Below, one piece after another: positions 11,129 through 28,936 of a DNA stretch of 28,936 nt. The stretch spans positions 1 through 28,936 of the IMG/VR virus record IMGVR_UViG_3300014720_000133; one strand, given 5' to 3'. A model generated the notes under the pieces. That model saw only the letters and a program-made list of their open reading frames with translations, was not told where the DNA came from and did no database searches. The DNA is from a virus. The translations under genes and the position numbers were made by a program. Each line of letters begins with the position of its first letter. The stretch's first letter is position 1.

Positions 11129-11132
11129 AGGT

Positions 11133-11475: not shown

Positions 11476-11499
11476 AACTAAACAAGAAAAAAACCAACT

Positions 11500-11793
11500 A
11501 TGAAAAACACATCTTTTATCAAGGACAACTTCAAGTCCTCAACACTACCAAGACTGAAGGCTGACTACGGCTATAAGTCAAATAAGGAAATCAACGAATG
11601 TCCTTATCTTACTTACTCACGTTTGTTTATGTACAACCCCACCTTTGCTCAACACCTATTGTTTGAGTATATGGAGCACTGCAAGCGCACGGGCAAGATG
11701 GCTGACCCAACAACCCTGAGAATTATACCAACCAAAACCTACACTCAAGTCTCGGAGGAACTTGATGTATTCGACCTAACCTCCACAATCTAA
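11500..11793 (+). CDS. Hypothetical protein, MKNTSFIK family A
   Basis: 97 residues (MKNTSFIKDNFKSSTLPRLK...). No known domain. The first 45 residues align with the protein at 12709: MKNT-aromatic-IK, then F-x-S, then Arg-(Leu/Ile)-Lys, a charged/aromatic Tyr, and Asn/Gln-rich residues. That suggests an old duplication within this small-gene block. Its own promoter lies 25 nt upstream and the leader is A-rich. The sequence has no membrane segment and contains two Cys (ECPYL, EHCKR). The function is not readable from sequence. Confidence 0.65.
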   Translation: MKNTSFIKDNFKSSTLPRLKADYGYKSNKEINECPYLTYSRLFMYNPTFAQHLLFEYMEHCKRTGKMADPTTLRIIPTKTYTQVSEELDVFDLTSTI

Positions 11794-11820
11794 TCTAAAC
11801 TCTAAAAACAAAAACAAACT

Positions 11821-12414
11821 ATGGAACTATCAAAACTTGAAATCAAAAACATTGACACCATTCTAAACGACTCAAACCAATATGGTGTTAGTCAACTATA
11901 TGGTCTTATGATTGACCTATGGCAAAACGGAATTAAACCCGAACAAGTCGGATGGGTCGGGAAATACCTTGAACCCCAACTAAAAACCTTTACCCATAAT
12001 CAGCAGGGGACACTGATTTACTCGGCATACCTAACCGAGAAGGTCAATTACTTCAACTCCCGCATTGTTATGAATTGGTTCAATGAAACCTATCCAGCAT
12101 TTTATGAATACCTTCAAAGCGATGCTGACGGCGACGACCCCCGATGGTCTGACATGCATATTGCAAATTACTCTGACTTTAGAGATGGGCAGATTGAAAC
12201 CTATATGGAACTATTTCATCAGAGCAACCCCTACTTTTTCAGTTTCCTAACCGAGGAGTGGCACGACGAATACTTCGCAAACCTTCCCCTTTACGACAAG
12301 ATTGCGGCAAAACAATACCTTATGGAAAACGACGAGGACTTTGATGATTATACCCAAGAACAACTCGACGAACTATTTCAACTCTCCAACTGGCAAAAAA
12401 AAATTAGAGAATAA
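11821..12414 (+). CDS. Acidic hypothetical protein
   Basis: 197 residues, strongly acidic, with clusters such as QSDADGDDPRW and MENDEDFDDYTQEQLDELFQ, and many aromatics (Tyr, Phe, Trp). No catalytic motif or membrane segment is visible. Small acidic phage proteins of this kind are sometimes DNA mimics that block host nucleases or regulators. That is a possibility raised only by composition; I do not see the ArdA or Ocr patterns. It starts 27 nt after its neighbour with an A-rich leader and is probably co-transcribed with it. A separate promoter follows its stop. Confidence 0.7.
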   Translation: MELSKLEIKNIDTILNDSNQYGVSQLYGLMIDLWQNGIKPEQVGWVGKYLEPQLKTFTHNQQGTLIYSAYLTEKVNYFNSRIVMNWFNETYPAFYEYLQSDADGDDPRWSDMHIANYSDFRDGQIETYMELFHQSNPYFFSFLTEEWHDEYFANLPLYDKIAAKQYLMENDEDFDDYTQEQLDELFQLSNWQKKIRE

Positions 12415-12446
12415 TTTGGTACTATCAATTTTATTTCTTATCTTTA
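12415..12446 (+). promoter_or_regulatory. Bacteroidota-type promoter, leaderless arrangement
   Basis: TTTG (12415-12418), 20 nt, then TATCTTTA (12439-12446). The box ends 4 nt before the ATG at 12451, the same arrangement as at 8963 and 11133. Confidence 0.65.
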
Positions 12447-12450
12447 CACT

Positions 12451-12588
12451 ATGAAAAACCAACAAACACTTCACCACCCTCTGCGGGATGCAGCGGGGGT
12501 GACCAAACTCTCAAACGAGGACACCGCAATAGTTGTCGTTATGGCAACCATTCTAATCGCATGTCTGTCCCTAATACTTTTTGTATAA
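12451..12588 (+). CDS. 45-residue membrane protein
   Basis: A short frame from ATG 12451 to TAA 12588: polar N-terminus (MKNQQTLHHPLRDAAGVTKL) and a hydrophobic segment (AIVVVMATILIACLSLILFV) reaching the C-terminus. That is a classic C-terminally anchored small membrane protein. A well-spaced promoter ends 4 nt before its ATG and a large stem-loop follows it, so it looks like its own transcription unit. It could be a holin-like, toxin-like or host-interaction peptide; nothing decides between these. Confidence 0.6.
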   Translation: MKNQQTLHHPLRDAAGVTKLSNEDTAIVVVMATILIACLSLILFV

Positions 12589-12620
12589 TGATTACCTATC
12601 TAATCAAATACTAAAAAAAC

Positions 12621-12693
12621 AGGACAAACCCCCCCAAACTTAACTTAACCAAAAGTCAAATAAGGGAAAAAGGAAAAGGGGGGTTGTCCTTTT
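12621..12693 (+). terminator. Long stem-loop with T-run (terminator or attenuator)
   Basis: AGGACAA-A-CCCCCC (from 12621) pairs with GGGGGGTTGTCCT (12678-12690), 13 bp with one bulged A, then TTT. The loop is about 43 nt. It lies between the 45-residue gene and the gene at 12709, so it may end the first transcript or attenuate the second. Confidence 0.6.
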
Positions 12694-12708
12694 ACAAAAC
12701 CAACAAAA

Positions 12709-12948
12709 ATGAAAAACACAACCTACATCAAAAAACTATTTGGTAGTGAAGCAATCCAACGCATCAAAGAAGAGTTCGAATACGACAACCAAAACCAAAT
12801 GAACCAAGACGACCACCTCTCAACTGCAGTCTTTTTACATTCAATCTATTCTGACCTTCTTATTGCACAAACAAGAGAGGAAAAGTTCAATACCTTTATA
12901 CAAGACCTCCGTCGTTGTTTCGTCAAGGAAATAGTCATAACGAAGTAA
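12709..12948 (+). CDS. Hypothetical protein, MKNTTYIK family B
   Basis: 79 residues (MKNTTYIKKLFGSEAIQRIK...). It resembles the N-terminal half of the 11500 gene product, with the same MKNT-(Ser/Thr)-aromatic-IK start and an RIKEEFEY segment matching RLKADYGY, but lacks that protein's C-terminal part. It has no motif of known function. The gene lies right after a large stem-loop and has an A-rich leader (ACAAAACCAACAAAA). It is the last gene before the 660-bp non-coding region. Confidence 0.6.
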   Translation: MKNTTYIKKLFGSEAIQRIKEEFEYDNQNQMNQDDHLSTAVFLHSIYSDLLIAQTREEKFNTFIQDLRRCFVKEIVITK

Positions 12949-12955
12949 TCTATAA

Positions 12956-13014
12956 CCCTCCCAAAAAAGGGGGGGACTAAATAAAAGGAACCCCTCAAAA
13001 AGGGGGGGACTAAA
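12956..13014 (+). repeat. Two repeated A-loop hairpins
   Basis: CCCTCCC-A6-GGGGGGG-ACTAAA (12956-12981) and CCCCTC-A5-GGGGGGG-ACTAAA (12991-13014). Each folds into a 6-7 bp stem with an all-A loop followed by the same ACTAAA. Confidence 0.7.
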
Positions 13015-13271
13015 AACCTTAAAAAGCGTGCTTTGCGGTATAACTTTTTCTCGGTCATCGCAAGAATATCCCCCCCCTTACTCGATACACTTGATTTAAC
13101 CCCCTTTTTAGACCATTTAAGACCACCAAATTATATGGGTGATATGATGAGACCTTTTTTCTTTTTGAGTCCATTAGAAGTCAAATAAATGAGTCTTTAG
13201 ATTCGTGACTACAGGGGGGGGTCAGTGAACACACAACCCCCGAGTGTTATGTACCACCCCAAATATCTAAG

Positions 13272-13363
13272 AAAATCCCCTCGAGCACTACAGGACAGAC
13301 AATGAGTTCCTTTAATTAAAATCCCTCGAGCACTACAAGAAAGACAACACAGTCCCTTATTTT
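13272..13363 (+). repeat. Two-copy 46-bp direct repeat with CTCGAGCACTACA core
   Basis: Copies begin at 13272 and 13318. Both contain CCCTCGAGCACTACA and a diverged tail (GGACAGACAA versus AGAAAGACAA). The core includes a CTCGAG palindrome. Confidence 0.75.
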
Positions 13364-13537
13364 ATCCCCCCCTTTTTTTTTAAGATTTTTTTTTATGTTG
13401 TGTTGATTGTGTGGATTTGGTTGGTTATTATTGTGGTATGGAAGGGGTTTTCATAGGTTGCCTTTCATCTTGTTGAAAAACCAGGCATTGTTGGTTTTGC
13501 TTTTCATACAAATGGGGGGGGTGTTAACCTCCTTGAA

Positions 13538-13570
13538 GGGGGTGAGTTCCTGGTCTCACTCCCTTTTTTT
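13538..13570 (+). terminator. Rho-independent terminator before the late operon
   Basis: GGGGGTGAG (13538-13546) pairs with CTCACTCCC (13555-13563), 9 bp with one wobble, extendable by two A-T pairs, followed by T7. It isolates the late operon from upstream transcripts. Confidence 0.85.
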
Positions 13571-13608
13571 ATTATTTTTTTATATTTATTGTTTGGAGAA
13601 AGGGATAT

Positions 13609-14013
13609 ATGGTACGGGAGTTATCGAGGGAGGTTATTGATGTATGTGTATCGAATGGTTTGAATGAGCCGTATTTGATGGGCATTGTTGATAGGTTGAT
13701 ATGTGGGTTATCCAAGGATGAGGATGATATTATTTTGACTTTTGGATTTTCTGAGGGCAAGGAGTTTGTGAGCATTGATATTGGTTATTTGCAGAATATT
13801 TTTGAGGTTGATTATCCCAATTTGAATTATTTTCTGATGAGTTCTGACAGTGGGTTTTACGATATGGTATTGACAAGGGACATTAGTGAGGGGGGATATC
13901 GTGAGTTAATGGATAAGATATTTGTTTATTTGGATTTGCAGTTTGATTTATTGCATTTGGGTGATGGGAAGATATCATTAAGGGATTTTGATGAGAGGTT
14001 AAAGAGGTTATGA
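13609..14013 (+). CDS. Hypothetical protein coupled to the terminase large subunit
   Basis: 134 residues (MVRELSREVIDVCVSNGLNE...). No family recognised; acidic, helical, with no membrane segment. Unusually for this genome, a purine-rich GGAGAAAGGG stretch lies 6 nt before the ATG and could act as a Shine-Dalgarno sequence. Its stop overlaps the terminase start (ATGA), so the two are coupled. Both use a very G-rich coding strand (many TTG, GGG and GTT codons) unlike the genes on either side. It may be a packaging accessory factor; this is inferred only from position. Confidence 0.65.
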   Translation: MVRELSREVIDVCVSNGLNEPYLMGIVDRLICGLSKDEDDIILTFGFSEGKEFVSIDIGYLQNIFEVDYPNLNYFLMSSDSGFYDMVLTRDISEGGYRELMDKIFVYLDLQFDLLHLGDGKISLRDFDERLKRL

Positions 14014-15155
14014 GCATTAAGACCACGGTTGTTTTCGAAAAATTGGTATCGAGCCAAAATAGGTTAAGCGTATTTCAGGGTAGTTCAAGGGCATCGAAGA
14101 CTTATAATATTTTGATATATTGGGTTTATCGGTTGTTGCAGGAGAATGGGAAGATATTGTCCATTGTCAGGAAGACTGGTCCTGCGATGAAGGGTTCCGT
14201 TCTTAGGGATTTGAAGGAGATATTGATTAGTTTTGGTGTTTATGACCCTGAGAATTGGAAGGTTGTTGATGGGGTATATCACATTGGGAATGGTTGCATG
14301 ATTGAGTGGTTTGCTTGTGATGATGAGAGCAAGGTTCGAGGTAGGAGCAGGGATTATTTGTTCATCAACGAAGCCACGGAGGTTAGCTTTGAGGAGTTTC
14401 AGCAGTTGATATTAAGAACAAGGGAGAAGATTGTTATTGATTTCAACCCCTCCCTTATGGAGAGTTATCTGTATGATTTGGAGCAGAGGGAGGATTGTGA
14501 TTATCATATTGTTACGTATAAGGACAATCCGTTTTTGCCAGATGACCAGATTAAGGAAATTGAACGGTTAAAGGATTTGGATGATAACCTTTGGTTGGTT
14601 TTCGGATTGGGGCAGAGGGGAAATCCTGAGACCTTGGTGTTTCCCAAGTTTTTGGAATATGAATCCCTTCCTGTTGGATGTGAGTTTTTGGGTAGGGGAA
14701 TGGACTTTGGCTATCACGACCCAACGACCTTGGTTGAGGTTTATCTCAGGCATGATGAGTTGTATTTGAAGGAGTTGATGTATGCCAAGGGCTTGACGGT
14801 TCCTGATATTGTTTTTAACTTAAATTTTTCCAATATTCCCAAATGGGATTATATTTGGTGTGATAGTGCCGAGCCGATGCTTATTGCCGATTTGAAGAGA
14901 AATGGATTTCTTACCAAGAAGGTGGTCAAGCAATCCATATTGTCAGGGATTGAAAAGATTAAACGACATAAGGTATTTATTCATAAGGATTCACATAATT
15001 TGAAAAAGGAGTTCCAATCTTATTCTTGGAGGAAGGACCCCAACGGAAAGATGATGGATGTCCCTGAGGATAAGAACAACCACGCAATCGATGCGGTTAG
15101 GTATGTGTTGGAGATGATGTTAAATAAACGAAAAACAGCAATTAGGGTTGTATGA
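14010..15155 (+). CDS. terL: Terminase large subunit
   Basis: 381 residues. The ATP-driven packaging motor and headful/cos nuclease. Walker A is GSSRASKT (24-31). Walker B is YLFINE with catalytic Glu121. The nuclease domain shows GMDFGYHDPTT (Asp232), CDSAEP (Asp285) and NNHAIDAVRY (Asp361), the three acidic positions of the RNase H-like fold. This order matches the SPP1/Terminase_3-type large subunits. Length is slightly short but both domains are complete. The start overlaps the upstream gene (ATGA), and its stop overlaps the next start in the same way. The coding strand is strikingly G-rich: bases 14281-14340 contain 22 G and 5 C. Confidence 0.95.
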   Translation: MSIKTTVVFEKLVSSQNRLSVFQGSSRASKTYNILIYWVYRLLQENGKILSIVRKTGPAMKGSVLRDLKEILISFGVYDPENWKVVDGVYHIGNGCMIEWFACDDESKVRGRSRDYLFINEATEVSFEEFQQLILRTREKIVIDFNPSLMESYLYDLEQREDCDYHIVTYKDNPFLPDDQIKEIERLKDLDDNLWLVFGLGQRGNPETLVFPKFLEYESLPVGCEFLGRGMDFGYHDPTTLVEVYLRHDELYLKELMYAKGLTVPDIVFNLNFSNIPKWDYIWCDSAEPMLIADLKRNGFLTKKVVKQSILSGIEKIKRHKVFIHKDSHNLKKEFQSYSWRKDPNGKMMDVPEDKNNHAIDAVRYVLEMMLNKRKTAIRVV

Positions 15156-15814
15156 ACATGCAAATTAAATTGGGGGATAAGTTGGTTGACCTCCCATTGG
15201 AATTCTCTTATTGGCAATGGAATAGAATGAAAGCTGCGGGTGATGACCTATCCCCCCTTTCAATGATATCCATTTGCTCGGGATTGGATAAAAAAGAAAT
15301 AAAGAAAGCGGATTTGTCTCATATTGAAATGGTATCAGAATATCTTGCCACAATTTATTTTAGCGCAAAACCAACCAATGATATTTTTGTTACCTTTTTT
15401 CATAAGGATGTTGAATATGGTCTACAGAAAGATTTTTCAAAACTCAAGTATGGTGCTTGGGTTGACTTGGAGGTCTATTCCTCACAGGATGTTGATAAGA
15501 ATATTCCCAAGATATTGTCTTTGATGTATTACCCAATTAAGGAATGGAAGGGGAAGAAATATATTTTGGAGGAGTATTCTGATGAATTGGTTGAGCATAC
15601 CGCATCAGAGTTTGAAGATATTCCCATGAGAATATGGTGGGGATTTTCAAGTTTTTTTTTGCTTTTCGCCGGCAGATATATCGAAAATATCAGGAGTTCT
15701 TTGACTACGAAGACAAGGATGGAGAAAATGTATCAGAGGGGGAAGAAGATTCTCCCAAAGTTTCTGCAAAAGAGGCTACCGCACGTTTTTACTTTTGGGG
15801 ATTCCAAGTTTTAA
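15152..15814 (+). CDS. Tail assembly chaperone, short (G-like) product
   Basis: 220 residues. It lies upstream of the tape measure gene, where tail assembly chaperones of the lambda gpG/gpGT type sit. Residues 1-170 look like a folded domain (LPLEFSYWQWNRMKAAGDDL, MRIWWGFSSFF). After Phe169 the frame reads through T9 and continues for about 50 residues (AGRYIENIRSSLTTKTRMEK) of low-quality, basic sequence that may be only the out-of-frame reading of the -1 product. The -1 frame opens across the same region and gives a more protein-like C-terminus. The two readings together suggest short and frameshifted forms. Confidence 0.65.
   Translation: MNMQIKLGDKLVDLPLEFSYWQWNRMKAAGDDLSPLSMISICSGLDKKEIKKADLSHIEMVSEYLATIYFSAKPTNDIFVTFFHKDVEYGLQKDFSKLKYGAWVDLEVYSSQDVDKNIPKILSLMYYPIKEWKGKKYILEEYSDELVEHTASEFEDIPMRIWWGFSSFFLLFAGRYIENIRSSLTTKTRMEKMYQRGKKILPKFLQKRLPHVFTFGDSKF
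15655..15661 (+). promoter_or_regulatory. -1 ribosomal frameshift slippery site
   Basis: T TTT TTG in the zero frame, inside a run of nine T (15652-15660). A one-base slip back re-pairs both tRNAs on TTT and joins the upstream chaperone to the downstream -1 frame. A T9 tract could also cause RNA-polymerase slippage or a sequencing length error. Confidence 0.6.
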
Positions 15815-15972
15815 CCAACAAGGATATAACCAAATGGGATAAGGTGTCAAATATGCCCTTATATTTATGTTTGAATCATCTTGCTTCGCACAAGGAAGAG
15901 GTTCTGAAAGAGAATGAACGAATTAGAAAACAAGAACTCGAATGGAAGAATATGTCTCGCTCGCGAGGATAA
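15661..15972 (+). CDS. Tail assembly chaperone, frameshift (GT-like) extension
   Basis: About 104 residues added after the slip, beginning AFRRQIYRKYQEFFDYEDKD and running through KEATARFYFWGFQVLTNKDI to MSRSRG. The frame is open upstream to an ATG at 15634, but the sensible product is a fusion with residues 1-169 of the gene at 15152. The fused protein would be about 273 residues. The extension has the mixed helical, charged character of T domains, which recruit the tape measure protein during tail assembly. It overlaps the next gene's start by 31 nt. Confidence 0.6.
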   Translation, partial: AFRRQIYRKYQEFFDYEDKDGENVSEGEEDSPKVSAKEATARFYFWGFQVLTNKDITKWDKVSNMPLYLCLNHLASHKEEVLKENERIRKQELEWKNMSRSRG

Positions 15973-16778
15973 TTAAATTATTTGAGGATTATGTATCCTC
16001 TGACCCAAGATTGCATTCTTTTGGGTTTGGTGATGTTATTGAGTTCGGATTTAATTTGGTTGACGAATATGGAAACTATGCATTTATGTTTGTCACCCCC
16101 ATTAATTCGGTTTTTGAACTTAACCTTACTCGTTATCAGTTTTCAATTATCTTTGCCGACCGCTTGAACGACGATAGAAGCAACCGCATTCAGGTTATCT
16201 CTGATATGAATTTGGTTGCACGAAGATTTGTCTCACAGATTTATATCAATCAAGGAAACTTGTTTGACTACATGAACATTATCCTTCCAACGGAAAGCAT
16301 GCCGTTTATGGAAAGATTTAATTTTGAGGTTGCAGGAGTTGTCTTGAATCTTCAGATTGAAGTATTCGAAGATATGAATGCTTGTGATTTCTATCCAACC
16401 CCCACACAAACTTCAACCCCCACTTCAACACCATCGGTTACTCCGACTCCCACTTTTACTCCAACATCAAGTTGTCCTGTGACCACTCAGTATTTGGAGG
16501 TCATCCTTCAGAGTTGTCATGCATTCAAGTTGGCTGTATGGAATGATGCAGGATTCACAAGTGCTGCAAATGCATTATGTAATTATGTCATATCAGGGAC
16601 TGCTTATGGAGATATGGGAACGGTTTATTCGGGAACCGAAACAATCTTATCGGGACAACATCAACACAACTTTAATTTGAATCCCGTTCTTCAACCCGGA
16701 GAATGTATTTCATCGTTTGTGGTGCATTCTTATTCAGCGCCATCTTGTGTTTGTCCCGTAAATCTTATCTTACCTTAA
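15942..16778 (+). CDS. Tail/neck protein with Pro/Thr linker and Cys module
   Basis: 278 residues. The N-terminal domain (1-147) includes FGFGDVIEFGFN, the segment FADRLNDDRSNRIQVISDMN and PFMERFNFEVAGVVLNLQIE. It is a family I know from Bacteroidota phages, located between chaperone and neck genes. Residues 152-176 are a Pro/Thr linker, followed by a roughly 100-residue C-terminal module with paired Cys (SCPVTTQYLEVILQSC, APSCVCP). The linker plus module looks like an appended exposed domain, as in the 515- and 713-residue proteins. The start at 15942 lies inside the end of the frameshifted chaperone. Confidence 0.55.
   Translation: MEEYVSLARIIKLFEDYVSSDPRLHSFGFGDVIEFGFNLVDEYGNYAFMFVTPINSVFELNLTRYQFSIIFADRLNDDRSNRIQVISDMNLVARRFVSQIYINQGNLFDYMNIILPTESMPFMERFNFEVAGVVLNLQIEVFEDMNACDFYPTPTQTSTPTSTPSVTPTPTFTPTSSCPVTTQYLEVILQSCHAFKLAVWNDAGFTSAANALCNYVISGTAYGDMGTVYSGTETILSGQHQHNFNLNPVLQPGECISSFVVHSYSAPSCVCPVNLILP
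16395..16469 (+). repeat. Pro/Thr linker sharing a 14-mer with another gene
   Basis: Codes [34 protein letters not shown] at 16440-16453 is identical to 18721-18734 in the 713-residue tail gene, and 12 of these bases recur at 4622-4633. Confidence 0.85.
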
Positions 16779-16786
16779 TTTAAGTT

Positions 16787-17380
16787 ATGGAAGATGAGCT
16801 CTTAAACAGGGTTGGTCAACTTATCCTCAATGAGGTAAAATCTACTTTTTCAGAACTTTATCCTTCGAGGACGTTTGGTGGACAACAAAAACCTATTTCA
16901 GGTCAACTTCCTCCCATTTTTTCAAGCAAAAATGCGACAAGAACTTATGTGAATTCTCTTCGGTACCGAATTGTTACTGATGAGGAGGACCAATCATTTA
17001 TTCAGATATTTTCAACAATCCCTGAAGAAGCTGACTACGGCAAATATATTGAATCAGGGAGAATTCCTGGATTTTGGCCAAACATCAATGCCATAAGAAT
17101 ATGGATGACAGCAAAACAGATAAAACCCCAACCTTTGCTCCAAAAAAATTCAAAGGGTGAACCTGTTTATAAAATACCAACTTTGAAGCAGTTGAATTAT
17201 TTGATATCAAGGTCTATTTTCAGGGAAGGTATTTTTCCATTTCCTTATGTGGATATCACCTATGAACGAATAAGAAAACAGCTTGTAAAAGACCTTGAAC
17301 CGGCAGTTGCCCAAAAGGTAACCAACCTTATCAGAGAGCGAGTTGTATTTATGGTTAACCCCCAAAGACAAACACGATGA
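16787..17380 (+). CDS. Probable tail-completion/neck protein (HK97 gp10-like)
   Basis: 197 residues. The segment YGKYIESGRIPG (84-95) followed by NINAIRIWMTAKQI (99-112) matches the pattern of gp10-like neck proteins, in which a Tyr-x-x-x-Ile-Glu-x-Gly-Arg loop precedes a helix. These proteins join the tail tube to the head. The C-terminal half is basic and helical (ITYERIRKQLVKDLEPAVAQ). Its stop overlaps the start of the next gene (ATGA). The assignment rests on the motif and on the position between chaperone and baseplate genes. Confidence 0.5.
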   Translation: MEDELLNRVGQLILNEVKSTFSELYPSRTFGGQQKPISGQLPPIFSSKNATRTYVNSLRYRIVTDEEDQSFIQIFSTIPEEADYGKYIESGRIPGFWPNINAIRIWMTAKQIKPQPLLQKNSKGEPVYKIPTLKQLNYLISRSIFREGIFPFPYVDITYERIRKQLVKDLEPAVAQKVTNLIRERVVFMVNPQRQTR

Positions 17381-19518
17381 ATGTAAGTATTATACAATCA
17401 CCCGAAGATTTTCAACCCGTTAAAAGTGACGGATTATTTTTTGTGGCTTCGGCCGATACCCAATCGGTTTTTAACTTTCGGTATGTGTTTGAGTTGTATA
17501 TTCAAGGGGTAAAAGTATTCACGGGCAAGTCCACCCCAAATCCTGAAGGATTGGGAGTTTTGGATGTGAGCAAAGTTATGGAAACTTATCTAACGGGTTC
17601 TCCCGTTGCATTGGATGAAAATACTGCCATATTTTGGCATACGACATTTCCTTTTTCAAGACCATATTCAAATCAAGTATTTCTCTATTATATCCAAGTG
17701 GGTGAGGAACATTCCAACACACAGACGGGTAGGGTCGAACAATATTCAGGTATAGGAAGCAATTTAGGTTTTCCTGGTGTACCTTCGTTGGATTTTAGAA
17801 CATATTTGGGGACGTTGCCAGTGAATTACATTGCAAACATCCAAGATTTTGACTATGGTCCGTTTGTTTTATCAGGAAATCCAACAAACTTTCAGCAAGG
17901 TTTGTTTTTAACAAACTCACCCCGTCAAAGAGATTTGAATGAGGATGATTGGTTTACCCTTTCATTTACCAATTATAGGATAAACAACCAAGATGTTTAT
18001 TCTGAGCCGTATTATGCAAAAATTGACTTCTACGACAATATCGGAGCATTTATAACCGCATATACCTTTACGAACATTTGGACCAACGGAGGGGGTCCTT
18101 TATCGTCTTGTACGAACAATTATCCTGTTCTTATTCCCCCCTCTTTGGATGCCACGGATTTCAACATCTTAAACTTGGGTGTTGGACCAAGGAATTTGCC
18201 GTCAATACCTAACGGAACATATTATTATAACGTTGGTTTGTATGGTGTGAGAAATAACATTTTGGTTACTCCCACACCCACTTCTTCGGTAACCCCAACA
18301 CCCTCATTCACACCTTCACCAACTCCATCATCACCTGCGTGTGATGAGTATTTGGTTGAAAACAATGCTGGTTTCACCGTTACCGAGACCTTCCCTGATT
18401 GTGATGGTAATTCAGTTACTTTGACTTTGCTCACAGGACAAACTGCTTTGGTTTGTGTAAGCACCGTTCCAATTTCACAATTCACTTGGACACTTCAAGG
18501 GGTTTGTCCTCCTGCGTGTATCTGTTTGGATGTTACTTTTACCAATACGGTTGGAAGAAGTGAAATTCTTTACTACAAAGATTGTAATGAAGTTCTTATT
18601 GGACTGACCATTGCACCATTTGGTGTTTATAACACTTGTATTTGTAATTTCTTCTCTTGGACGGGCTCAACATTCACCATTGTCAATAACGGACCATGTT
18701 CCTTTCCAACGCCAACAGCAACTCCGACTCCCACGGCAACACCAGTTCCTGGAATCAATGCTTTGCTTCGTGGTTGTTGCGACCCATCGCAGCAAATCTA
18801 TGCAAGAATACCTGGTCGTGCTGTTTTTGGAAACTCCTTTGCTTATAATGGGGAATGTTTCAACTATGTGCAATCTGCATCATTCTTTGATATTGATTTG
18901 ACTGATGGTCAAACATATTTGGAATGTCAATCTTGTATTATTGATAATCCATGTGGTCCTGAACAAGATATTTTGCCTGTAAGACCTGATATTGAACCTA
19001 TTATAAATGTTCCAAGTTTGGCTGGTGAGGGTGCTTGTGTGGCATATCAACCATGTTCAGAGGTCTTTACCTTCAAATTGGTTTGTGACGAAGGTGCACA
19101 ATTTGGTCAAAGACAAATTATGTTCCGTAATAGGTATGGGGTATATGACTACTATCGTTTTGTAAGGGGTAAGGCTGAAGGTTTGGACATTGAAAGACAA
19201 ACTTACCAACAATACAATCAAACTTGGGGACAAGCAAACATCTTGAAGACAACATATTCGAGAGGAACTTCCAACTGGCAAACTCGTATTACTGAGACCC
19301 ATGTAATCAACTCAGGATTTATATCTCAAGCTGAGATGGTTTATCTACAGGAACTCTATACATCAGATGATGTTTATGAGGTAAAACCTGATGGAACTTT
19401 ATTCCCAATCAATGTGGTGAATACTGAATTCATCATTCGTAATAAAGGAAATAAAAATTTGGTGAACTTGGAGCTTACCTATATTTACTCCAACAACATC
19501 AGAATGTTAGGATTATAA
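17377..19518 (+). CDS. Distal tail protein with inserted Cys modules
   Basis: 713 residues. The N-terminal region (1-290) begins MNVSIIQSPEDFQPVKSDGL and contains VLDVSKVMETYL. The C-terminal region (about 540-713) has FRNRYGVYDYYRFVRGKAEG, INSGFISQAEMVYLQELYTS and NLELTYIYSNNIRMLG. Together they look like a conserved Bacteroidota-phage baseplate protein. Between them lie two Pro/Thr linkers (297-322 and 443-459) and two related Cys modules (DCDGNSVTLTLLTGQTALVC; DCNEVLIGLTIAPFGVYNTC). The modules seem inserted into the parent protein and are likely exposed. It is probably next to the tail tip, ahead of the 872-residue protein and the tape measure. Confidence 0.6.
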   Translation: MNVSIIQSPEDFQPVKSDGLFFVASADTQSVFNFRYVFELYIQGVKVFTGKSTPNPEGLGVLDVSKVMETYLTGSPVALDENTAIFWHTTFPFSRPYSNQVFLYYIQVGEEHSNTQTGRVEQYSGIGSNLGFPGVPSLDFRTYLGTLPVNYIANIQDFDYGPFVLSGNPTNFQQGLFLTNSPRQRDLNEDDWFTLSFTNYRINNQDVYSEPYYAKIDFYDNIGAFITAYTFTNIWTNGGGPLSSCTNNYPVLIPPSLDATDFNILNLGVGPRNLPSIPNGTYYYNVGLYGVRNNILVTPTPTSSVTPTPSFTPSPTPSSPACDEYLVENNAGFTVTETFPDCDGNSVTLTLLTGQTALVCVSTVPISQFTWTLQGVCPPACICLDVTFTNTVGRSEILYYKDCNEVLIGLTIAPFGVYNTCICNFFSWTGSTFTIVNNGPCSFPTPTATPTPTATPVPGINALLRGCCDPSQQIYARIPGRAVFGNSFAYNGECFNYVQSASFFDIDLTDGQTYLECQSCIIDNPCGPEQDILPVRPDIEPIINVPSLAGEGACVAYQPCSEVFTFKLVCDEGAQFGQRQIMFRNRYGVYDYYRFVRGKAEGLDIERQTYQQYNQTWGQANILKTTYSRGTSNWQTRITETHVINSGFISQAEMVYLQELYTSDDVYEVKPDGTLFPINVVNTEFIIRNKGNKNLVNLELTYIYSNNIRMLGL
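18265..18342 (+). repeat. Pro/Thr linker 1 of the 713-residue tail protein
   Basis: Codes TPTPTSSVTPTPSFTPSPTP. It precedes the first Cys module. A shorter linker (18703-18753, FPTPTATPTPTATPVPG) follows the second. Confidence 0.85.
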
Positions 19519-19521
19519 AAA

Positions 19522-22140
19522 ATGTTGGATACTACCTTATTAGTTTTAACTGATAGTGGATATCAAACTTTGGATATTTTCCAAGAACTTCCCATATCAG
19601 TCAATTATTCTGAATTATCAATCACAGAGATTGACGCAAGGAGGTCTCCATATTCGTCAACTTTTACGATTCCTGGTACGGAGGGAAACAATGTAATTTT
19701 CCAACATTTTTATGAGGTTAACGGAACAGATTTCAATCCGTTAAATGAGGTAAATTGTGTTGTTCAATATAGGGGAAATGACATATTTCGAGGTAAACTA
19801 AGATTGAACAAGGTTGTTGTTTTTTATGATTATAACGAGTATGAAGTTTATATCACTTCTGAACTGCAGAATCTCTCATCTGTTCTTAAAGAAACCACTT
19901 TGCCTGATTTAGATTGGGCTGATTATTATTTTGATATGAATTATACCTCCGTGACAACCTCATGGAGTGCAAATACGCAAAATACCCAAGGGTTATTTGG
20001 TGGAGATATCTTGATGCCATTGATAAATTATGGATTACCAATTCAAAGTGGACAAACCGCTCCTGATTGGTTTTTTTCAATGGATAACGATGTTCAGTAT
20101 GGTTCAATAACATATTCAGGTAATGCAATCAACGCCCTTTATTTCAAACCATCAATCAGAATAAAAGCAGTAGTTGATAAGATATTTTCAGGAACAGGAT
20201 ATAATTATAATTCTGATTTTTTTGATACATCTTATTTCCGTTCAATTTACATGGACACAGCTCAAAATGGACAGATTGGTCCTGTTTTGGGAAGTGGGGT
20301 GACCAATGAAAACTTTTTTAAGGTTTTTTCTCCTTCACCTTTTACGCTATTACCTGTTGATTCACAGGGTAATCAAAAACTGCAATGGTCATTTCCTTTC
20401 AACAATTTGGGAAATTCGGGTTACGACCCCCTCCAAAATGTAACTTTTTGGAATGCTGCCAATCCTGAGCAAACAGGATACTTCCAAGTTCCATATTCTG
20501 GTGATTATTATTGGAATTTGCGTTTTACCTATGCCCAAAAGTATATTTATAGCAACGATACAATATTCCGTTTATTAGTTAAAGTTGCTGACAATGTCGC
20601 TGACTTGGAAAATGGGGGTAATATACTTTATCAAACTCCTGGTGCTGGTTTTGCTGCAGATAGTGGAAATAAAGGAGCCAATATATTCTTTTCAGGAACA
20701 GTTCAAGCAGGACAATATGTAAAGCCATATCTTGTCTTTGAAAGTGGTGCGATTGCGGCAGGATTATACATTCAAAGATTTCAAGGACTAACAATTTTTG
20801 ACGATGACCCAATGTGGGAACTCTATGGTTCTCCATTTATTACAAGTGCGACTACCATTGACATGAAATTGCAAATGCCCAACATCACGTGCATGAATTT
20901 CATGAGGAGTTTGGTAAATCAATTTAATTTGGTTATTACAGAAGATGTTCAACAGAATACATTCAGAATTGAACCATTACCTTGGTATTTCGATGAAGAC
21001 CAACGAACCGAAAGAGATTGGACAGATTATCTTGATATAAATTCTCCTGTTGAGATTTCTGCATTGAATTTTGATTTGCCAAAACAAATTAATTTCAAGG
21101 GATTTTACAATGAAAACGAGACACTTAATAGACAATATCTCTCAAATTATCAATTATTATTTGGAGAAAGAAGATTTTTGACTGATACAACAATCCCTGA
21201 TGGAGAATTGGTTATTGAAACCATATTCTCACCATTGCCCACTGATTTTATATCAGGTTCAACAAATGTCATAATCCCACAACTTTGGTATCTTGAAAAA
21301 GACCAAGAACCCATCGGTACTGGTAATTACCCGATACCAAGACAAAATTCTCCGCATTTATTCTTTTGGGTAGGTAATAGATACTTTTGGAAAGATTGGG
21401 GGGACTATACTGTTGGTAACCAACGTAGATGGTGGTTATTATCAGGAAATACACCAATTGCCCAAACAACTTATCCTTGCGTATCACACATCACAAGTTT
21501 GGATTCGTTGGATGCCGCACAAAACTCAGAATTGAATTTTTATCCTTCAACAGATTATTATTTTGAAGAAACAACAGACTTTTTGAAATATGTTCAAAAT
21601 ACAACCTATCGATATTTTTGGCAAACCCATATTGAAAATCTTTATTCACCAAATGCAAGGAAATATACAGGTAGATTTATAATGTCTCCTCAATATTATG
21701 CAGATTTGAAGTTGACTGATAAGATATGGATAAAAGATGCATCCTATAGAATTGATTCAATCAATAATGCAAATTTGGTTGAGCCACAATCCACAGAAAT
21801 TACCCTGGTTAAGGATTTGAACCTATACTATAGAGAAACTCTTTGGGCTCCATCAGTTGGTATTGCACCGAATTCAGCATATCCAGCTACCCCTGGTTGT
21901 GTGGTTTATTCATTTACAGCAGTTGCAAATTATGACCAATTCCTTGTTTGCACAAGAAATACTCCACTTGTGACCTTCTACAGTAGTGACCCTGCTGGTT
22001 TGGTTGAGGGTGCCAAAATTTACACCACAAACACTTGCAGCACCTTCGCTGATACGGGATTATATTTAAGATTAACGGGTTCAACCGAGAATTTCGTGAT
22101 AGATTTCTTGGGAACCGCATTGAGCAACGGACAATGTTAA
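19522..22140 (+). CDS. Tail tip/baseplate protein with C-terminal module
   Basis: 872 residues. The N-terminal domain (about 1-110) reads LPISVNYSELSITEIDARRS, YSSTFTIPGTEGNNVIFQHF, then VVQYRGNDIFRGKLRLNKVV. This is the pattern of large tail-tip proteins in Bacteroidota phages, which form the adsorption end of the tail. The middle has a conserved block (NITCMNFMRSLVNQFNLVIT). The last 75 residues (VVYSFTAVANYDQFLVCTRN to the C-terminal GQC) form a separate module with KIYTTNTCSTFADTGLYL, similar in layout to [17 protein letters not shown] in the 515-residue protein. No lytic or peptidase motif is visible. It starts 3 nt after the previous stop. Confidence 0.65.
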   Translation: MLDTTLLVLTDSGYQTLDIFQELPISVNYSELSITEIDARRSPYSSTFTIPGTEGNNVIFQHFYEVNGTDFNPLNEVNCVVQYRGNDIFRGKLRLNKVVVFYDYNEYEVYITSELQNLSSVLKETTLPDLDWADYYFDMNYTSVTTSWSANTQNTQGLFGGDILMPLINYGLPIQSGQTAPDWFFSMDNDVQYGSITYSGNAINALYFKPSIRIKAVVDKIFSGTGYNYNSDFFDTSYFRSIYMDTAQNGQIGPVLGSGVTNENFFKVFSPSPFTLLPVDSQGNQKLQWSFPFNNLGNSGYDPLQNVTFWNAANPEQTGYFQVPYSGDYYWNLRFTYAQKYIYSNDTIFRLLVKVADNVADLENGGNILYQTPGAGFAADSGNKGANIFFSGTVQAGQYVKPYLVFESGAIAAGLYIQRFQGLTIFDDDPMWELYGSPFITSATTIDMKLQMPNITCMNFMRSLVNQFNLVITEDVQQNTFRIEPLPWYFDEDQRTERDWTDYLDINSPVEISALNFDLPKQINFKGFYNENETLNRQYLSNYQLLFGERRFLTDTTIPDGELVIETIFSPLPTDFISGSTNVIIPQLWYLEKDQEPIGTGNYPIPRQNSPHLFFWVGNRYFWKDWGDYTVGNQRRWWLLSGNTPIAQTTYPCVSHITSLDSLDAAQNSELNFYPSTDYYFEETTDFLKYVQNTTYRYFWQTHIENLYSPNARKYTGRFIMSPQYYADLKLTDKIWIKDASYRIDSINNANLVEPQSTEITLVKDLNLYYRETLWAPSVGIAPNSAYPATPGCVVYSFTAVANYDQFLVCTRNTPLVTFYSSDPAGLVEGAKIYTTNTCSTFADTGLYLRLTGSTENFVIDFLGTALSNGQC

Positions 22141-22141
22141 T

Positions 22142-25100
22142 ATGGCAGAAAAAATTACATTAGATATAATCTTAAATAATAGAGGAGCAATAACCTCTTT
22201 AGAAGATTTAAGACAAGCAGTAAAACTTGCCAATGCTGAGCTCAGTACATTGGGTGAAGGTGCAAAAAACTATGGGGAATTATCAAGTTTTGTTTCCGCA
22301 GGTAATACTGAAATTCTCAGACAGCAAAAATTATTAAAAGGTCTTACCTCTGAAGAAATCGCTGGTGCATATGCACGTATTGGTGGTGGTATTTCTTCAA
22401 CATTTGCTGCAGCATCAGCTGCTTTAGCTACCTTTGGTGTAGAAAACGAATCAGTATTAAAAGCCGCTGCGGATGCACAAAATTTATTAACAATTGCCAT
22501 ATCAACTCGGCAAATTCAAGAAGGTATTCTCTCTGCAAGACAATTGTCCAATTTGGTTGCAGAAAGAGCAAGATTGGCTCTTTCAAGATTGAATAAAACT
22601 GCAACTGATGCTGAGACAATATCTGAAGTTGCAAATTCGGCGGCTTTGGATAAAAACACCTCAGCTGAAGTAAAAAATGCTGCAGCAACAGGAGCTAAAA
22701 CCGTAGCAACCGAAGGAGAAACAGTTGCAACTGTTGCTCAAACAGGTGCTCAAGGGATTTTGAACACAGTGACAACTGCGGGAACGAATATAATGAAAGC
22801 ATTTTATGCAACAGTTGCCGCTAATCCATTCGGTGCAATCATTACGGCTATTGGACTTTTGGTTACAGGTGTTATTGTACTTAAAAATGTATTGCAGGAT
22901 ACAGACAAAGCTTATAAAGCTTTTAACAATGCAGTTGATGAAAGCAGTGGACAAATTGCTGTAGAAATAAGACAACTTGATGCATTGGTTGCTATTGTAA
23001 AAGATAACAATAGAAGTCAGGCAGATAGATTATCTGCATATGAAGAATTACAAAAAGTTTTACCTGGTATAAAAGATTTGACAATAGACCAAGCTCTTGC
23101 AGAGGAAAAGCTTACCCAAGCTTATGACCTTCAAATTAAAGTTTTGAAATCCAAAGCAAAGTTGGATGCCGCACAACAAATATATTCTAAAGCATTTTCA
23201 GAGATACTCAAAGTTCAAAGAAAAGACATTGGGGATTACGCTTTCACATGGCAGTCTTTGTTGAGTGCTCTTACGCAAGGTACTTTTGCTTTCGGTGCTT
23301 TGCAGGCAAAATTTGAAGATTTAAGAGAAGCTACTGATGCATTATCAGATGCAGATAAACTTCTCAACCAATTTACTATAGAACATAATAATGACATAAT
23401 TGCTCAAAATAATTTCATAAGAGAAAATACAGAAGGAAAAGTAGATAATACTAGAGCAACGAATGAACAAGTTATTGCCAATAATAGATTAAGAGATGCT
23501 TATGCAAACTTGAGCAAATTTTTGAAAGAAACTTTAGATTTTTACAAAGAATTGGGAAAGGTTGTAGAAGTTGAAGACAAATTGCCAGAGTTTATAGAAA
23601 AAGTTAACGGGGCTTTAAGGGAAAGAAATAAGTTGGTAAAACAAGGTGGTAACGCTTTTGAAGAAGGATTAGTTAAAATTGGATTTCAAACTAAAGCTTT
23701 AGATTCAATGATGTTGGGGGCTATGAGAATGGCCAATGGTTTTCTCAATGCCAACCTTAAGACAACAGATAGTCTACTTAATCTTTCAGATGTTTTTGGA
23801 AAAGCTATTGAAGATGATTATGAATCCTTATTTTTGTCGGTCGGTAATCGAACAGAGACCTTTGACAAATACATCCGCGGGGTAAGAGAAGATTATCTTA
23901 AATTGTTTGAGGAAGGAAAAATCACTCCTGAGGCTTTAGGGAGTGTAGATGCACTTATCCAAAATTTAACAAGTATGAATAGACTTGTTAGAGAAGGTGG
24001 GGTTTCATTGTCAGAAACTTTCAATAAAGAAAATCTTAACGAATATTTAGAAGCTCAAAGAGAGGTATCAGTCGCTGAAGGGAAAATTGGTTTTGAAATA
24101 GACAAAACTACCGGTAAAGTTATTCAAGCAACTGCTGATAGAAAAAATTATAGTAAAAACCTTCAAACAATTGCAGTTTTTGAATCTGAAATATACAAAA
24201 AAACCGTTGATGGTTTAGAAGATATAAGAAGAGCAAGTAATGAAAACTTCAAAGCAACTGTTATACGAGCTCAAGAAGAAAAAAGAATAACTTCTGACCA
24301 AGCACAAACCCTACTCTCCCAAGCGGATGTACTATCAAAAAGTGAAATTGAACGTACCAATTTAATTAATAGAATTGCAGAACAAAGAGTTGAGTCCGTC
24401 AGAAAACAAGTCACTGGTACTCAGAAAGAACTTGATAGGATTAGAAAATATAATTTTGAATTCACCCGTGATATTGAAAATGCTGAAGAGATTTCTGCTG
24501 CGGCAATAACCACTCTTATAGAAAAAAATACAGGAGATTTCTTAGAGGCGATTGAAAGAAGGGCAAGATTTGCTATTACTAACTCTCAAAAAATTGCTCA
24601 AGCAGATAGATTATTGCAAGCCCGTTTATTAGATTCGACAAAATTTACAGAAGAGGAAAAAATTAGAATCTATGAGGCAACTTATCAATACCAAAAAGAA
24701 ATTAGTGACAAAAGTAGAAAAGATATCACAAAAAATATTGAAGAGTTCTTTAGAATTGCTCAACAGGCACTTAATGCATATCAAGAATATGTCGATAGAG
24801 CTCGGGAGCTTGCCATAGAAAGAATCAATATTGAGGAAACTGAAAAACTACGTCAATTAGAATTTGCATATTCTCAGGGGTTGGTATTAGAGAAAACATA
24901 TCAACAGAAAAGACTCGAATTGATAGAAGAATATACTGCTCGAAGAAATGCTGTTGAGAAGAAAAGTAGAATCAAACAACTTCAATTAGATAGACTTCAA
25001 GCAATTGCAAATGTCGCTGTAGGTGTAACCAAATCAATTGAACAAGGTGGTATCTTCGGACTTATTACAGGTGCTATTGTTGCCGCAGCAGGTGCTGCAG

Positions 25101-25477
25101 AAATAAGTATTATTTCTCAACAAATTAGTTTAGCCCAATCACTTAAAAAAGGTGGTTGGATTAAAGCTCAAGAAGGTTTGATGGTACAAGGACCAAGTCA
25201 TGAAAATGGCGGTGTAAAATTCCAAAATGGAGGTTACGAATTAGAAGGTGGAGAAGCTGTTATCAACAGGGTTTCAGCAAGAAATTATCAAGGTTTACTC
25301 TCCCAAATCAATCAGAGTGGTGGTGGAAGACCATTGGTATCGAGTTTTGACGACTCAAGGATTGTAGATGCAATTGCAAAACAGAGAATGGAACCCATCA
25401 GAGCTTATGTAATTGAACAAGATATAACAAGAAAACAGGCAATTAACAAAAAGTTGGACCAGTTGTCTCGCTTTTAA
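22142..25477 (+). CDS. Tape measure protein
   Basis: 1111 residues. Sets tail length and may help DNA cross the cell envelope. It is the longest gene, Gln/Lys/Glu-rich, with long coiled-coil stretches. Hydrophobic segments lie at about 228-250 (NPFGAIITAIGLLVTGVIVL) and 970-998 (GIFGLITGAIVAAAGAAEIS). The C-terminus carries GPSHENGGVKFQNGGYELEG followed by GEAVINRVSARNYQGLLSQI, a signature I know from tape measure proteins of Bacteroidota phages. Two frameshift-linked chaperone frames lie upstream, as expected. It begins one base after the previous stop. Confidence 0.9.
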   Translation: MAEKITLDIILNNRGAITSLEDLRQAVKLANAELSTLGEGAKNYGELSSFVSAGNTEILRQQKLLKGLTSEEIAGAYARIGGGISSTFAAASAALATFGVENESVLKAAADAQNLLTIAISTRQIQEGILSARQLSNLVAERARLALSRLNKTATDAETISEVANSAALDKNTSAEVKNAAATGAKTVATEGETVATVAQTGAQGILNTVTTAGTNIMKAFYATVAANPFGAIITAIGLLVTGVIVLKNVLQDTDKAYKAFNNAVDESSGQIAVEIRQLDALVAIVKDNNRSQADRLSAYEELQKVLPGIKDLTIDQALAEEKLTQAYDLQIKVLKSKAKLDAAQQIYSKAFSEILKVQRKDIGDYAFTWQSLLSALTQGTFAFGALQAKFEDLREATDALSDADKLLNQFTIEHNNDIIAQNNFIRENTEGKVDNTRATNEQVIANNRLRDAYANLSKFLKETLDFYKELGKVVEVEDKLPEFIEKVNGALRERNKLVKQGGNAFEEGLVKIGFQTKALDSMMLGAMRMANGFLNANLKTTDSLLNLSDVFGKAIEDDYESLFLSVGNRTETFDKYIRGVREDYLKLFEEGKITPEALGSVDALIQNLTSMNRLVREGGVSLSETFNKENLNEYLEAQREVSVAEGKIGFEIDKTTGKVIQATADRKNYSKNLQTIAVFESEIYKKTVDGLEDIRRASNENFKATVIRAQEEKRITSDQAQTLLSQADVLSKSEIERTNLINRIAEQRVESVRKQVTGTQKELDRIRKYNFEFTRDIENAEEISAAAITTLIEKNTGDFLEAIERRARFAITNSQKIAQADRLLQARLLDSTKFTEEEKIRIYEATYQYQKEISDKSRKDITKNIEEFFRIAQQALNAYQEYVDRARELAIERINIEETEKLRQLEFAYSQGLVLEKTYQQKRLELIEEYTARRNAVEKKSRIKQLQLDRLQAIANVAVGVTKSIEQGGIFGLITGAIVAAAGAAEISIISQQISLAQSLKKGGWIKAQEGLMVQGPSHENGGVKFQNGGYELEGGEAVINRVSARNYQGLLSQINQSGGGRPLVSSFDDSRIVDAIAKQRMEPIRAYVIEQDITRKQAINKKLDQLSRF

Positions 25478-25488
25478 TATTTATCATT

Positions 25489-25935
25489 ATGTTGAAAATT
25501 ATCAAATTAGACATTGACGAGAATTTATCGGGAGATACTCGCGTCGAAGAAATAGCATTAGTTTTAGAGCCAGCCGTTGAGGTAGATTTCGTGTATTTTG
25601 GTAGAGAAGATTTTGAATCTTACACAGACTATCCGAAATCTGCACAGAGAGCCGCTTGTAGAGCAAAAAAATTCTACACTGAAAAAGGTAATCCAAATGA
25701 TTGTCTTACAGCTGTAGGTGTCGCAAGAATGAATCAATTGTGTAAAGGAGACCCCCTCTCTGAAAAAACTATTTCCAGGATGGCTTCGTTTGCTCGTCAT
25801 CTCAGAGGTGAAAACATTCCATATGAAGATGGTTGTCAAGGTTTAGCTGTTGATGCTTGGGGTTCAAGAACTGGTATTGAATGGGCTCAGAAAAAATTAG
25901 AACAGATAAGAAAAGACAAGAATGGAAATAATTGA
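25489..25935 (+). CDS. Conserved head-module protein, EPAVEVDFVYF type
   Basis: 148 residues. The N-terminal EEIALVLEPAVEVDFVYFGR resembles the IS-V-(D/E)-PAIE-FxxF start of XkdF-like protease polyproteins. The second domain (46-140) runs DYPKSAQRAACRAKKFYTEK, LCKGDPLSEKTISRMASFAR, then DGCQGLAVDAWG and WAQKKL. It is a compact helical domain with Cys57, Cys72, Cys85 and Cys116 that I know from phage head-gene clusters but cannot name. In relatives these parts can occur in one polyprotein; here they are a separate gene next to it. It overlaps the following gene by 14 nt. Confidence 0.55.
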   Translation: MLKIIKLDIDENLSGDTRVEEIALVLEPAVEVDFVYFGREDFESYTDYPKSAQRAACRAKKFYTEKGNPNDCLTAVGVARMNQLCKGDPLSEKTISRMASFARHLRGENIPYEDGCQGLAVDAWGSRTGIEWAQKKLEQIRKDKNGNN

Positions 25936-26185
25936 TTGGATATTGGTAACCATTACGGGTATAAGTGGATTCTTTTTAGGAATGAGAAAAACTCAAAAAG
26001 AAACTGACTCTATATCAATTCAGAATGTTGCATCCACACTTAATGTTTATCAAGATATCATTGCGGATTTGAAAGTTCAAATCAAAGAAATGAAAGAAAA
26101 GATGGAACAGATGGATAAGACAATCCACAAACTCCAAGAAGAAAATAAAAAACTTAATGCAATGATTAAGAAAAATGGACAATAA
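25922..26185 (+). CDS. Small membrane-anchored coiled-coil protein
   Basis: 87 residues. A membrane segment (IIDWILVTITGISGFFLGM, about 3-21) is followed by a long charged coiled coil (DLKVQIKEMKEKMEQMDKTI and on to LQEENKKLNAMI). The layout resembles inner-membrane spanins and some holin-like accessory proteins. It is the only lysis-type candidate in the late operon. It overlaps both neighbours (14 nt and 11 nt), so it is tightly coupled to the head genes. Many Bacteroidota phages carry such a gene here; its role is not established to my knowledge. Confidence 0.6.
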   Translation: MEIIDWILVTITGISGFFLGMRKTQKETDSISIQNVASTLNVYQDIIADLKVQIKEMKEKMEQMDKTIHKLQEENKKLNAMIKKNGQ

Positions 26186-28811
26186 TTTAATGGATGGAGT
26201 ACCAGTATTTGAAACAATTGAAGAGGCTATCGCACAAGCACAAAAACTTGGATGTAAGGGTTATCATCCACATCAACATGAAGGAAGAGAAGTTTATATG
26301 CCATGCGAAGACCATGACCAAAGCTTAGACATTATAGATTCGAAGGGGCAAGATATTGAGGATGTCTTGGAAGATAACGTCATTGTAGGAGTTAAGATTG
26401 TAAATGACCCTGAAGAAGTGAGCAAACGTTATATGAAACGTTTAGCTAATTCAAATCTTAGTGGTCAAAAATTTTATAGAATTGTCTCCAACCCGAATGA
26501 GCCATCTCTGTTGGATAGTGCAACCAAAAGATACAGATACATTTATGCTCCTGGTGAAGGAGCACCCGATTTGATAGATACTTCAAGAAGCTTCTGCACA
26601 AGAATGATGGGTGGAGTACAAAAGGTGTATCGTTACGAGGACATATTAGATTTATCCGCTCAACTTGAAGTTGAAGATACTGCACGTAAAATTATACCAC
26701 GTCCAAAAAACTCAGGACCCGTTGATATATGGGTTTGGAAAGGTGGCGCAGGATGTCAACACCGCTTCATTGAATTAGTTTTAGAACCAAGAGGATACAT
26801 TCCAAATAACGCACAAAATGCTCAAAGAATTGCGGAATTTGAGTCTCCGGCAGGTGGTAACACAGGACAGATTAATCTACCCCCCAACTATGCAAGCGGA
26901 TTTGCTAAAGTTGGTGAAAGGGGTGGTATTGTCAAAAGTGAAAAAGCTCCCAAGTCAGATACACCAAATAGAAATCCCAAAGGAGAGGGTACCGCAAAAG
27001 GTGATGCTCGTTCAACAAGAGGTGCTGAGGTGAGTGCTCGTGTTGAAAAGATATTAGAAGATAAGGTAAAAGATTTCAACGACAGATATAAAGAAAAATT
27101 GGGTTATGGAGCAAACAAAGGTGCTTTGAAATCCGTTTATCAAAGGGGGGTTGGAGCTTATAACACTTCACATTCACCTGAAGTGAAGTCTGCAGAACAA
27201 TGGGCGTTAGCAAGAGTTAACGCATTTCTTTATCTTTTGAGAAATGGTAGACCTGAGAATAGCAAGTATGTCAACGATAATGACTTACTACCTAAAGACC
27301 ATCCGAAATATTCGAAAGAAGAATTTGATTACAATGTTTCATCACTATCCCCGTATGCGGTAACTTCAGGAGATACCGAAATAGAGGAGGTATTCATCAA
27401 CAAAAAACCTTACGAAAGAAAAGATGCATATCTTGCTCGTTGTATGGAAGCTCTTGTTGGTGAGTTTCCTGATTCCAAACAAAGATATGCGGTTTGCAAT
27501 TCAGATTGGGAAAGCTTCAATGCGATGGAATTGGACATTTATGGTTATCCAACTGAACATTTTTATATTTGCCCTGGTGCTAAAGCAACATTCATGGAGA
27601 TTATGAGTGTTGACAATGATGAAGATACTATTGGAATGATAAGGTCTGCAGCTCTTATTGCTGATAAAATTTTCGATATTGAAGAAGATGCCATCGAAGA
27701 TGGAAAAGCATCACCAAAAGATTTGGAATTAGCTAAATTATTGGTTGATGACTATAAGGATTTGATTGGGGAAATTGCAAAGATACAAGGAAAGGAATAT
27801 AATGTTGATTACATGGATGGTCACATTGATACAATATCCAAATTCGTAGTTTCAGAAATGTTCAGAAAAAATTTGGATAGGGGCATTGTTGTCGACATCG
27901 AGGGAGCTCTCATTAAAGATGGTCAACCTATTATGAAGACCATTGAATATCTTGAGGAAATGAGTGACCGATATAAGATTATTTTAATAAGTGGTCGTCC
28001 TGAAAGCAAATTACAAGAAACAATTGATGAACTTGAAGAATATGGTATCGAATATGATGAGATATACCTTCAAGATTTATCTGAAGACACAACAGGAGAC
28101 GTTGCAATGAGATTCAAGACCAACAAGGTCAAGAAACTAATGCAATCTGGTTTCAACATCTCAGAGATGATAAGTGCTGACTCAGGTACTTTGGCTGCTT
28201 TAGAACAATTGGGTATTGGTCTATACTATCCTGAAGAGTTGGATGTTTTATTTAGACCCACAGCCTTTGCAAAAGGCAAAGCCTTATTTGAAACTCAAGA
28301 GGAAGCTTTCGAGTATTCAATGTTTTGTGGATGTGGGGGATATGTTTCTGATTATATGTTCAAAGGACAGAAATTGTTTATGTCCTGTGGAGATTATAAA
28401 AAGGAGCCACAAGCTTTCTCAATGGAAGAAGATAAACGAATTATTTATGCACCTGTGATGGTGCCTGGAAAAATAATTCCACGAATGGATGAATTTGGAC
28501 AAAAATATTTTGTGACCTTCACTCCCGAAGTTATTGAGAAAATGGCTTACAAATACATGAAAGAAAAGAGGACTGACCAAGTCAACTATGAACATTCTGA
28601 CCAAAAGTTTAAGGATGTTTATATGGTTGAGAGTTGGGTAATCAATTCTGATAATGATAAGGCTTATAACTTTTTTGAGAAAGACGACTTGCCCATTGGT
28701 ACTTGGATGGCAGCATTCAAGGTAGATAGTGATGAAGTTTGGAACAATTATGTTAAAGCCAACAAAGTGAAAGGAGTTTCCTTGCAAGGAAATTTTCTAT
28801 ACACAAACTAA
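26175..28811 (+). CDS. Head polyprotein with HAD-like domain and XkdF-like protease
   Basis: 878 residues. Domains in order: (1) FETIEEA...GCKGYHPHQH...YMPCED module (11-47); (2) FYRIVSN... with SFCTRMM and GGAGCQHRFIELVLEPRGYI (about 95-220); (3) a Gly/Ser/Lys linker; (4) DUF5824-like block with LKSVYQRGVGAYNTSHSPEV and WALARVNAFLYLLRNGRP; (5) DAYLARCMEALVGEFPDSKQ, then CPGAKATFMEIMS and IRSAALIADKIFDIEEDAIE; (6) HAD-like region (568-700) with DIEGA at 574-578, SGR at 606-608 and ADSG at 668-671; (7) a second copy of module 1 (704-742); (8) prohead protease with NYEHSD (His807), VESW (Glu819) and GVSLQG (Ser869). It lies just ahead of the scaffold and capsid genes. Confidence 0.75.
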   Translation: MDNNLMDGVPVFETIEEAIAQAQKLGCKGYHPHQHEGREVYMPCEDHDQSLDIIDSKGQDIEDVLEDNVIVGVKIVNDPEEVSKRYMKRLANSNLSGQKFYRIVSNPNEPSLLDSATKRYRYIYAPGEGAPDLIDTSRSFCTRMMGGVQKVYRYEDILDLSAQLEVEDTARKIIPRPKNSGPVDIWVWKGGAGCQHRFIELVLEPRGYIPNNAQNAQRIAEFESPAGGNTGQINLPPNYASGFAKVGERGGIVKSEKAPKSDTPNRNPKGEGTAKGDARSTRGAEVSARVEKILEDKVKDFNDRYKEKLGYGANKGALKSVYQRGVGAYNTSHSPEVKSAEQWALARVNAFLYLLRNGRPENSKYVNDNDLLPKDHPKYSKEEFDYNVSSLSPYAVTSGDTEIEEVFINKKPYERKDAYLARCMEALVGEFPDSKQRYAVCNSDWESFNAMELDIYGYPTEHFYICPGAKATFMEIMSVDNDEDTIGMIRSAALIADKIFDIEEDAIEDGKASPKDLELAKLLVDDYKDLIGEIAKIQGKEYNVDYMDGHIDTISKFVVSEMFRKNLDRGIVVDIEGALIKDGQPIMKTIEYLEEMSDRYKIILISGRPESKLQETIDELEEYGIEYDEIYLQDLSEDTTGDVAMRFKTNKVKKLMQSGFNISEMISADSGTLAALEQLGIGLYYPEELDVLFRPTAFAKGKALFETQEEAFEYSMFCGCGGYVSDYMFKGQKLFMSCGDYKKEPQAFSMEEDKRIIYAPVMVPGKIIPRMDEFGQKYFVTFTPEVIEKMAYKYMKEKRTDQVNYEHSDQKFKDVYMVESWVINSDNDKAYNFFEKDDLPIGTWMAAFKVDSDEVWNNYVKANKVKGVSLQGNFLYTN

Positions 28812-28836
28812 ACACTATTTATTTGTAAATAAAATT

Positions 28837-28936
28837 ATGGAATCAAAAATTATATTAAGAATCTACAAAACAATTGGACTAAAATTGAACGAAGAGAAGT
28901 TTGAAATGAATAAGATGATGGATTCTGATATAAAAG
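28837..28936 (+). CDS. Scaffold-like protein, N-terminal part (cut by window end)
   Basis: Starts ATG 28837 with an A-rich leader and codes MESKIILRIYKTIGLKLNEE then KFEMNKMMDSDIK to the window end. It matches the truncated gene at 1-776 with six or seven conservative changes. It is either the same gene across a circular junction, represented by a variant, or a second copy in tandem. The 25-nt gap after the polyprotein gene contains a TTTATTT/AAATAAA dyad. Confidence 0.8.
   Translation, partial: MESKIILRIYKTIGLKLNEEKFEMNKMMDSDIK
28847..28936 (+). repeat. Terminal direct repeat, right copy
   Basis: Partner of bases 1-90. All 11 differing positions are A here. Confidence 0.9.

Follow-up and report, generated by a model that had tools for sequence, protein, structure and literature searches.

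Genes at the Contig Ends

The window, the whole 28,936-base stretch of viral DNA that was analyzed, is classed in its record as linear. Phages of Bacteroides, Parabacteroides, and Phocaeicola have large terminases 35-36% identical to that of the window, which also encodes a portal protein, a prohead protease, and a tape-measure protein. By this terminase likeness and gene complement, the virus is an ordinary tailed phage, whose host probably lies in the Bacteroidota. A search of the window for RNA families and tRNAs found none.

Joining position 28846 to position 1 restores a 261-amino acid gene that starts at 28837 and ends at 776. Its first 10 bases (28837-28846, plus strand; ATGGAATCAA) stand near the right end of the window and its remainder continues at positions 1-776 of the same strand; a sister contig, described below, reads through the whole gene. 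Upstream of the join, a plus-strand gene at 26175-28811 encodes an 878-amino acid protein with a C-terminal XkdF-type prohead protease (PF14550, Peptidase_S78_2; E 2.8e-14, above the curated cut-off). Downstream, at 798-1751 on the plus strand, lies the gene for a putative major capsid protein. A second relative, contig L016, whose DNA around the join is 74-78% identical to the window, has its protease, putative scaffold, and putative capsid genes in this order too.

The scaffold role is putatively assigned from the place of the 261-residue gene between those for the protease and the putative capsid protein, and the capsid role, also putative, from gene order and length. No family matched the putative scaffold protein above cut-off. 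The putative capsid protein lacks a Pfam match, weakly matches a PHROG of unknown function, and has a 90% identical counterpart in L016; no relative of it was found among deposited phages. A search for relatives of both proteins returned only the sister contig and L016. Besides its protease domain, the 878-residue protein matches DUF3721, DUF5824, and a HAD-phosphatase-like family. Its L016 homologue (L016 positions 6698-8584) has 628 residues and is without the large middle part.

The Terminal Near-repeat

The first and last 90 bases of the window (1-90 and 28847-28936) are near-copies in direct orientation that extend exactly to both contig ends. They correspond to about codons 4 to 33 of the putative scaffold gene, at its 5' start. 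The copies agree at 79 of 90 positions and differ at repeat positions 2, 6, 26, 27, 35, 58, 64, 69, 86, 88, and 89, so that the first mismatch sits one base past the start point of the contig. At all 11 sites the right copy has A, and the left copy has C (nine sites) or T (two sites). A recount thus bore out the match and the A-only differences listed in the first-pass annotation, together with its remark that about half of the right copy is A (44 of 90). On this strand, the changes affect 9 of the 15 C residues, 2 of the 26 T residues, and none of the 16 G residues; the contrast between changed C and spared G has a Fisher P of 2.5e-4.

That annotation had also judged the pattern unlikely by chance, and natural divergence supports this judgment. 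A set of 1,847 natural substitutions that separate the window from its nearest non-identical relative has A on a given side in 30-33% of cases, and under this substitution mix the probability of 11 A's in 11 differences is ∼2e-6 to 5e-6.

Closure of the Circle

When IMG/VR was searched with the protein from the left end of the window, two contigs were recovered, L016 and the sister. The sister contig, IMGVR_UViG_3300013132_000431 (17,578 bp; labeled L003, and L015 as a whole contig), aligns to window positions 23292-28846 and then, without a gap, to positions 1-12023, with 12024-23291 lying outside the comparison. It carries the 90-base stretch once, matching the left copy at all 90 positions. 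Outside the terminal 90 bases, the sister contig and the window differ at 6 of 17,488 positions (two of them within 1-12023), versus 11 of 90 inside, a concentration with a binomial P of ∼3e-25. Because the sister contig runs gap-free from 28846 to 1, the window ends meet in a near-identical genome and, given the single copy, the window on this alignment closes into a circle of ∼28,846 bp in which 28846 is joined to 1. Further copies of either version of the repeat were sought in two collections: viral_contigs yielded the sister contig only, and genome_contigs yielded none. No other searched contig carries the A version, and a 19-base match in L005 proved to be unrelated sequence.

If the phage genome were linear, with a physical terminal repeat whose direct copies have diverged, these copies would likewise stand at the two ends of the contig and point the same way. 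However, the stretch belongs to the 5' part of a coding gene through which the sister contig reads uninterrupted, and the restriction of the differences to A would be left unexplained. Terminal repeats are, moreover, kept identical through concatemer replication. This origin is accordingly given a very low probability.

Contig end repeats often stem from short-read assembly of a circular genome (CheckV, PMC8116208). The window resembles a contig of that type in that the same stretch is directly repeated at its ends and closes to a circle, and an overlap produced by assembly is expected to reach both contig ends in direct orientation and to be joined in one copy by independent sequence, as is found here. 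The copies of such an overlap should also be identical; the 11 differences in 90 require either read errors or a variant. CheckV looks for repeats 20 bp or longer shared by the start and end of a contig (PMC8116208), whereas the copies in the window already differ at position 2 and at 10 further sites.

Case against a Diversity-generating Retroelement

The lead reading of the first-pass annotation was a diversity-generating retroelement (DGR), in which the right copy would be the template repeat and the left copy the variable repeat. The likeness is that two near-repeats differ solely at adenines of one copy, 11 of 11, and adenine restriction is the only DGR feature tested that the window displays. 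A DGR has two separate copies in one genome, but only one spans the joined ends in the sister contig. The variable region of a DGR is C-terminal, at the 3' end of its target gene, but this repeat is at the start of the 261-residue gene, and the template adenines would have changed only to C or T, never to G. The annotation had itself raised the gene-start position and the missing G as objections, and both stand. So does its failure to see a reverse transcriptase, and the search now extends to related contigs: the window, the sister contig, and L016 all lack a PF00078 (RVT_1) match, and this family was detected in 3 of 14 control genomes. Finally, the C and T bases of the left copy are present in the sister contig and mostly in L016. 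No second TR/VR-like pair was found among the repeats shown, the other large families consisting of Thr-Pro coding repeats or of matches that are short and weak. With one real copy, no reverse transcriptase match, a gene-start locus, and no A-to-G change, the DGR was rejected, and its probability is close to negligible.

Origin of the Adenine Differences

The near-repeat is most likely an assembly artifact with no mutation-generating element. Comparison with relatives indicates that the right copy is most likely the faulty version and the left the genuine one: the sister contig backs the left copy throughout, and at the 11 variable sites L016 has the left base at eight, the right-copy A at one, and T at two. 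The preferred explanation, held with high confidence, is that one stretch of a circular genome has been written twice, the second time with read errors. The assembler would have opened a circular or circularly permuted genome within the putative scaffold gene, gone once round the circle, and, back at its start point, taken a minor branch representing the same DNA misread. The terminal 90 bases would then repeat bases 1-90 in a second, faulty read, with A called at 9 of the 15 C and 2 of the 26 T residues. We infer that the 11 A's are base-calling errors on a branch born in the assembly graph; a first change one base after the start point is what a fork in such a graph could give.

Studies of Illumina errors lend this explanation a possible precedent. 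When a MiSeq miscalls C, the base reported is A in 58-61% of cases, and one laser serves for both A and C (PMC4381044); C to A has also been reported as the most frequent substitution (PMC6053417). The right copy is like these miscalls in that C to A accounts for 9 of its 11 changes and G is spared, and unlike them in its two T-to-A changes and its very high local density of 11 in 90. Three observations count against read errors. Reads that pass trimming and tip removal usually carry far fewer errors than 11 in 90 bases, two of the changes are T to A, and the A version keeps its reading frame open with fairly conservative changes.

The last observation is also the main attraction of a second explanation, in which the right end is a minority haplotype of the same phage, 12% divergent where the putative scaffold gene begins. 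A true variant would likewise give a fork in the graph, and the changes include Leu to Ile, Leu to Met, and three silent ones, in keeping with the first-pass remark that many are conservative. In random trials of C- or T-to-A changes, 33% left the frame open and 8% of the open ones were as conservative, a joint chance of ∼3%, although this is a weak test devised after the fact. The open frame and conservative changes thus weakly favor a real variant, but they are outweighed by the A-only pattern (∼2e-6 to 5e-6 under natural substitution). Furthermore, none of the 11 changes is a transition, compared with 44% of those between the window and its relative, and the changes fall at codon positions 1, 2, and 3 in a flat 3/3/5 pattern versus 40/26/106 in the natural divergence of the putative scaffold gene. 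The absence of the A version from all other contigs searched also argues against a strain variant. The circular genome joined across two strain variants that had been listed as an alternative therefore survives in part: the sister contig indicates that the ends do join, but two strain variants are less likely because the changes are to A only and, on this strand, affect C but never G. Overall, a strain variant is considered unlikely. A real minority haplotype that owes its one-strand C- or T-to-A changes over at least 90 bases, with the frame left open, to an unknown C-to-A mutagenic process is considered very unlikely.

Chemical damage to one template molecule, such as oxidized G, that was copied into the assembly end provides another source of C-to-A change. 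Oxidation of G on the complementary strand predicts the direction seen in 9 of 11 changes and the sparing of G, but it does not predict the two T-to-A changes, and damage at 9 of 15 sites in one molecule would be extreme. A C-to-A artifact had been proposed at the outset as a form of damage; as misreading it is now part of the preferred explanation, whereas damage in the chemical sense is highly improbable.

The value of this terminal overlap is solely practical. Tests that require identical end repeats will miss a complete circular genome if its end overlap is inexact, and A-restricted mismatches at contig ends can mimic a retroelement. The window is best handled as one turn of a ∼28,846-bp circle, with its last 90 bases ignored.

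Other Sequence Features

Three of the six background differences between the window and the sister contig are packed into 20 bases, at window positions 26861-26880 (C/T, C/A, C/A), adjoining a run of six C residues. L016 has the C of the window at all three. Two are C-to-A changes in the sister contig, at window positions 26877 and 26880, beside or in the C run. These changes in the sister may be miscalls, possibly of the same kind as the A's at the right end of the window.

Runs of at least six C or G residues are more frequent than expected in this A+T-rich genome, with 18 found versus 6.5 expected and a maximum of 11 in 50 simulations. They are located at 12629-13600 and also at 7568, 9237-9258, and 15252. 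Seven runs of 6-8 residues fall within ∼0.9 kb that contains little coding sequence and lies ahead of the terminase genes, and a 45-base imperfect tandem repeat occupies 13268-13357 in the same region.

Four predicted proteins contain Thr-Pro-rich repeats resembling TPTPTNTPT (2387-4904, 15942-16778, and 17377-19518), which are probably linkers in virion proteins. One of these Thr-Pro regions weakly matches a "putative YapH protein" of Flavobacterium phages.
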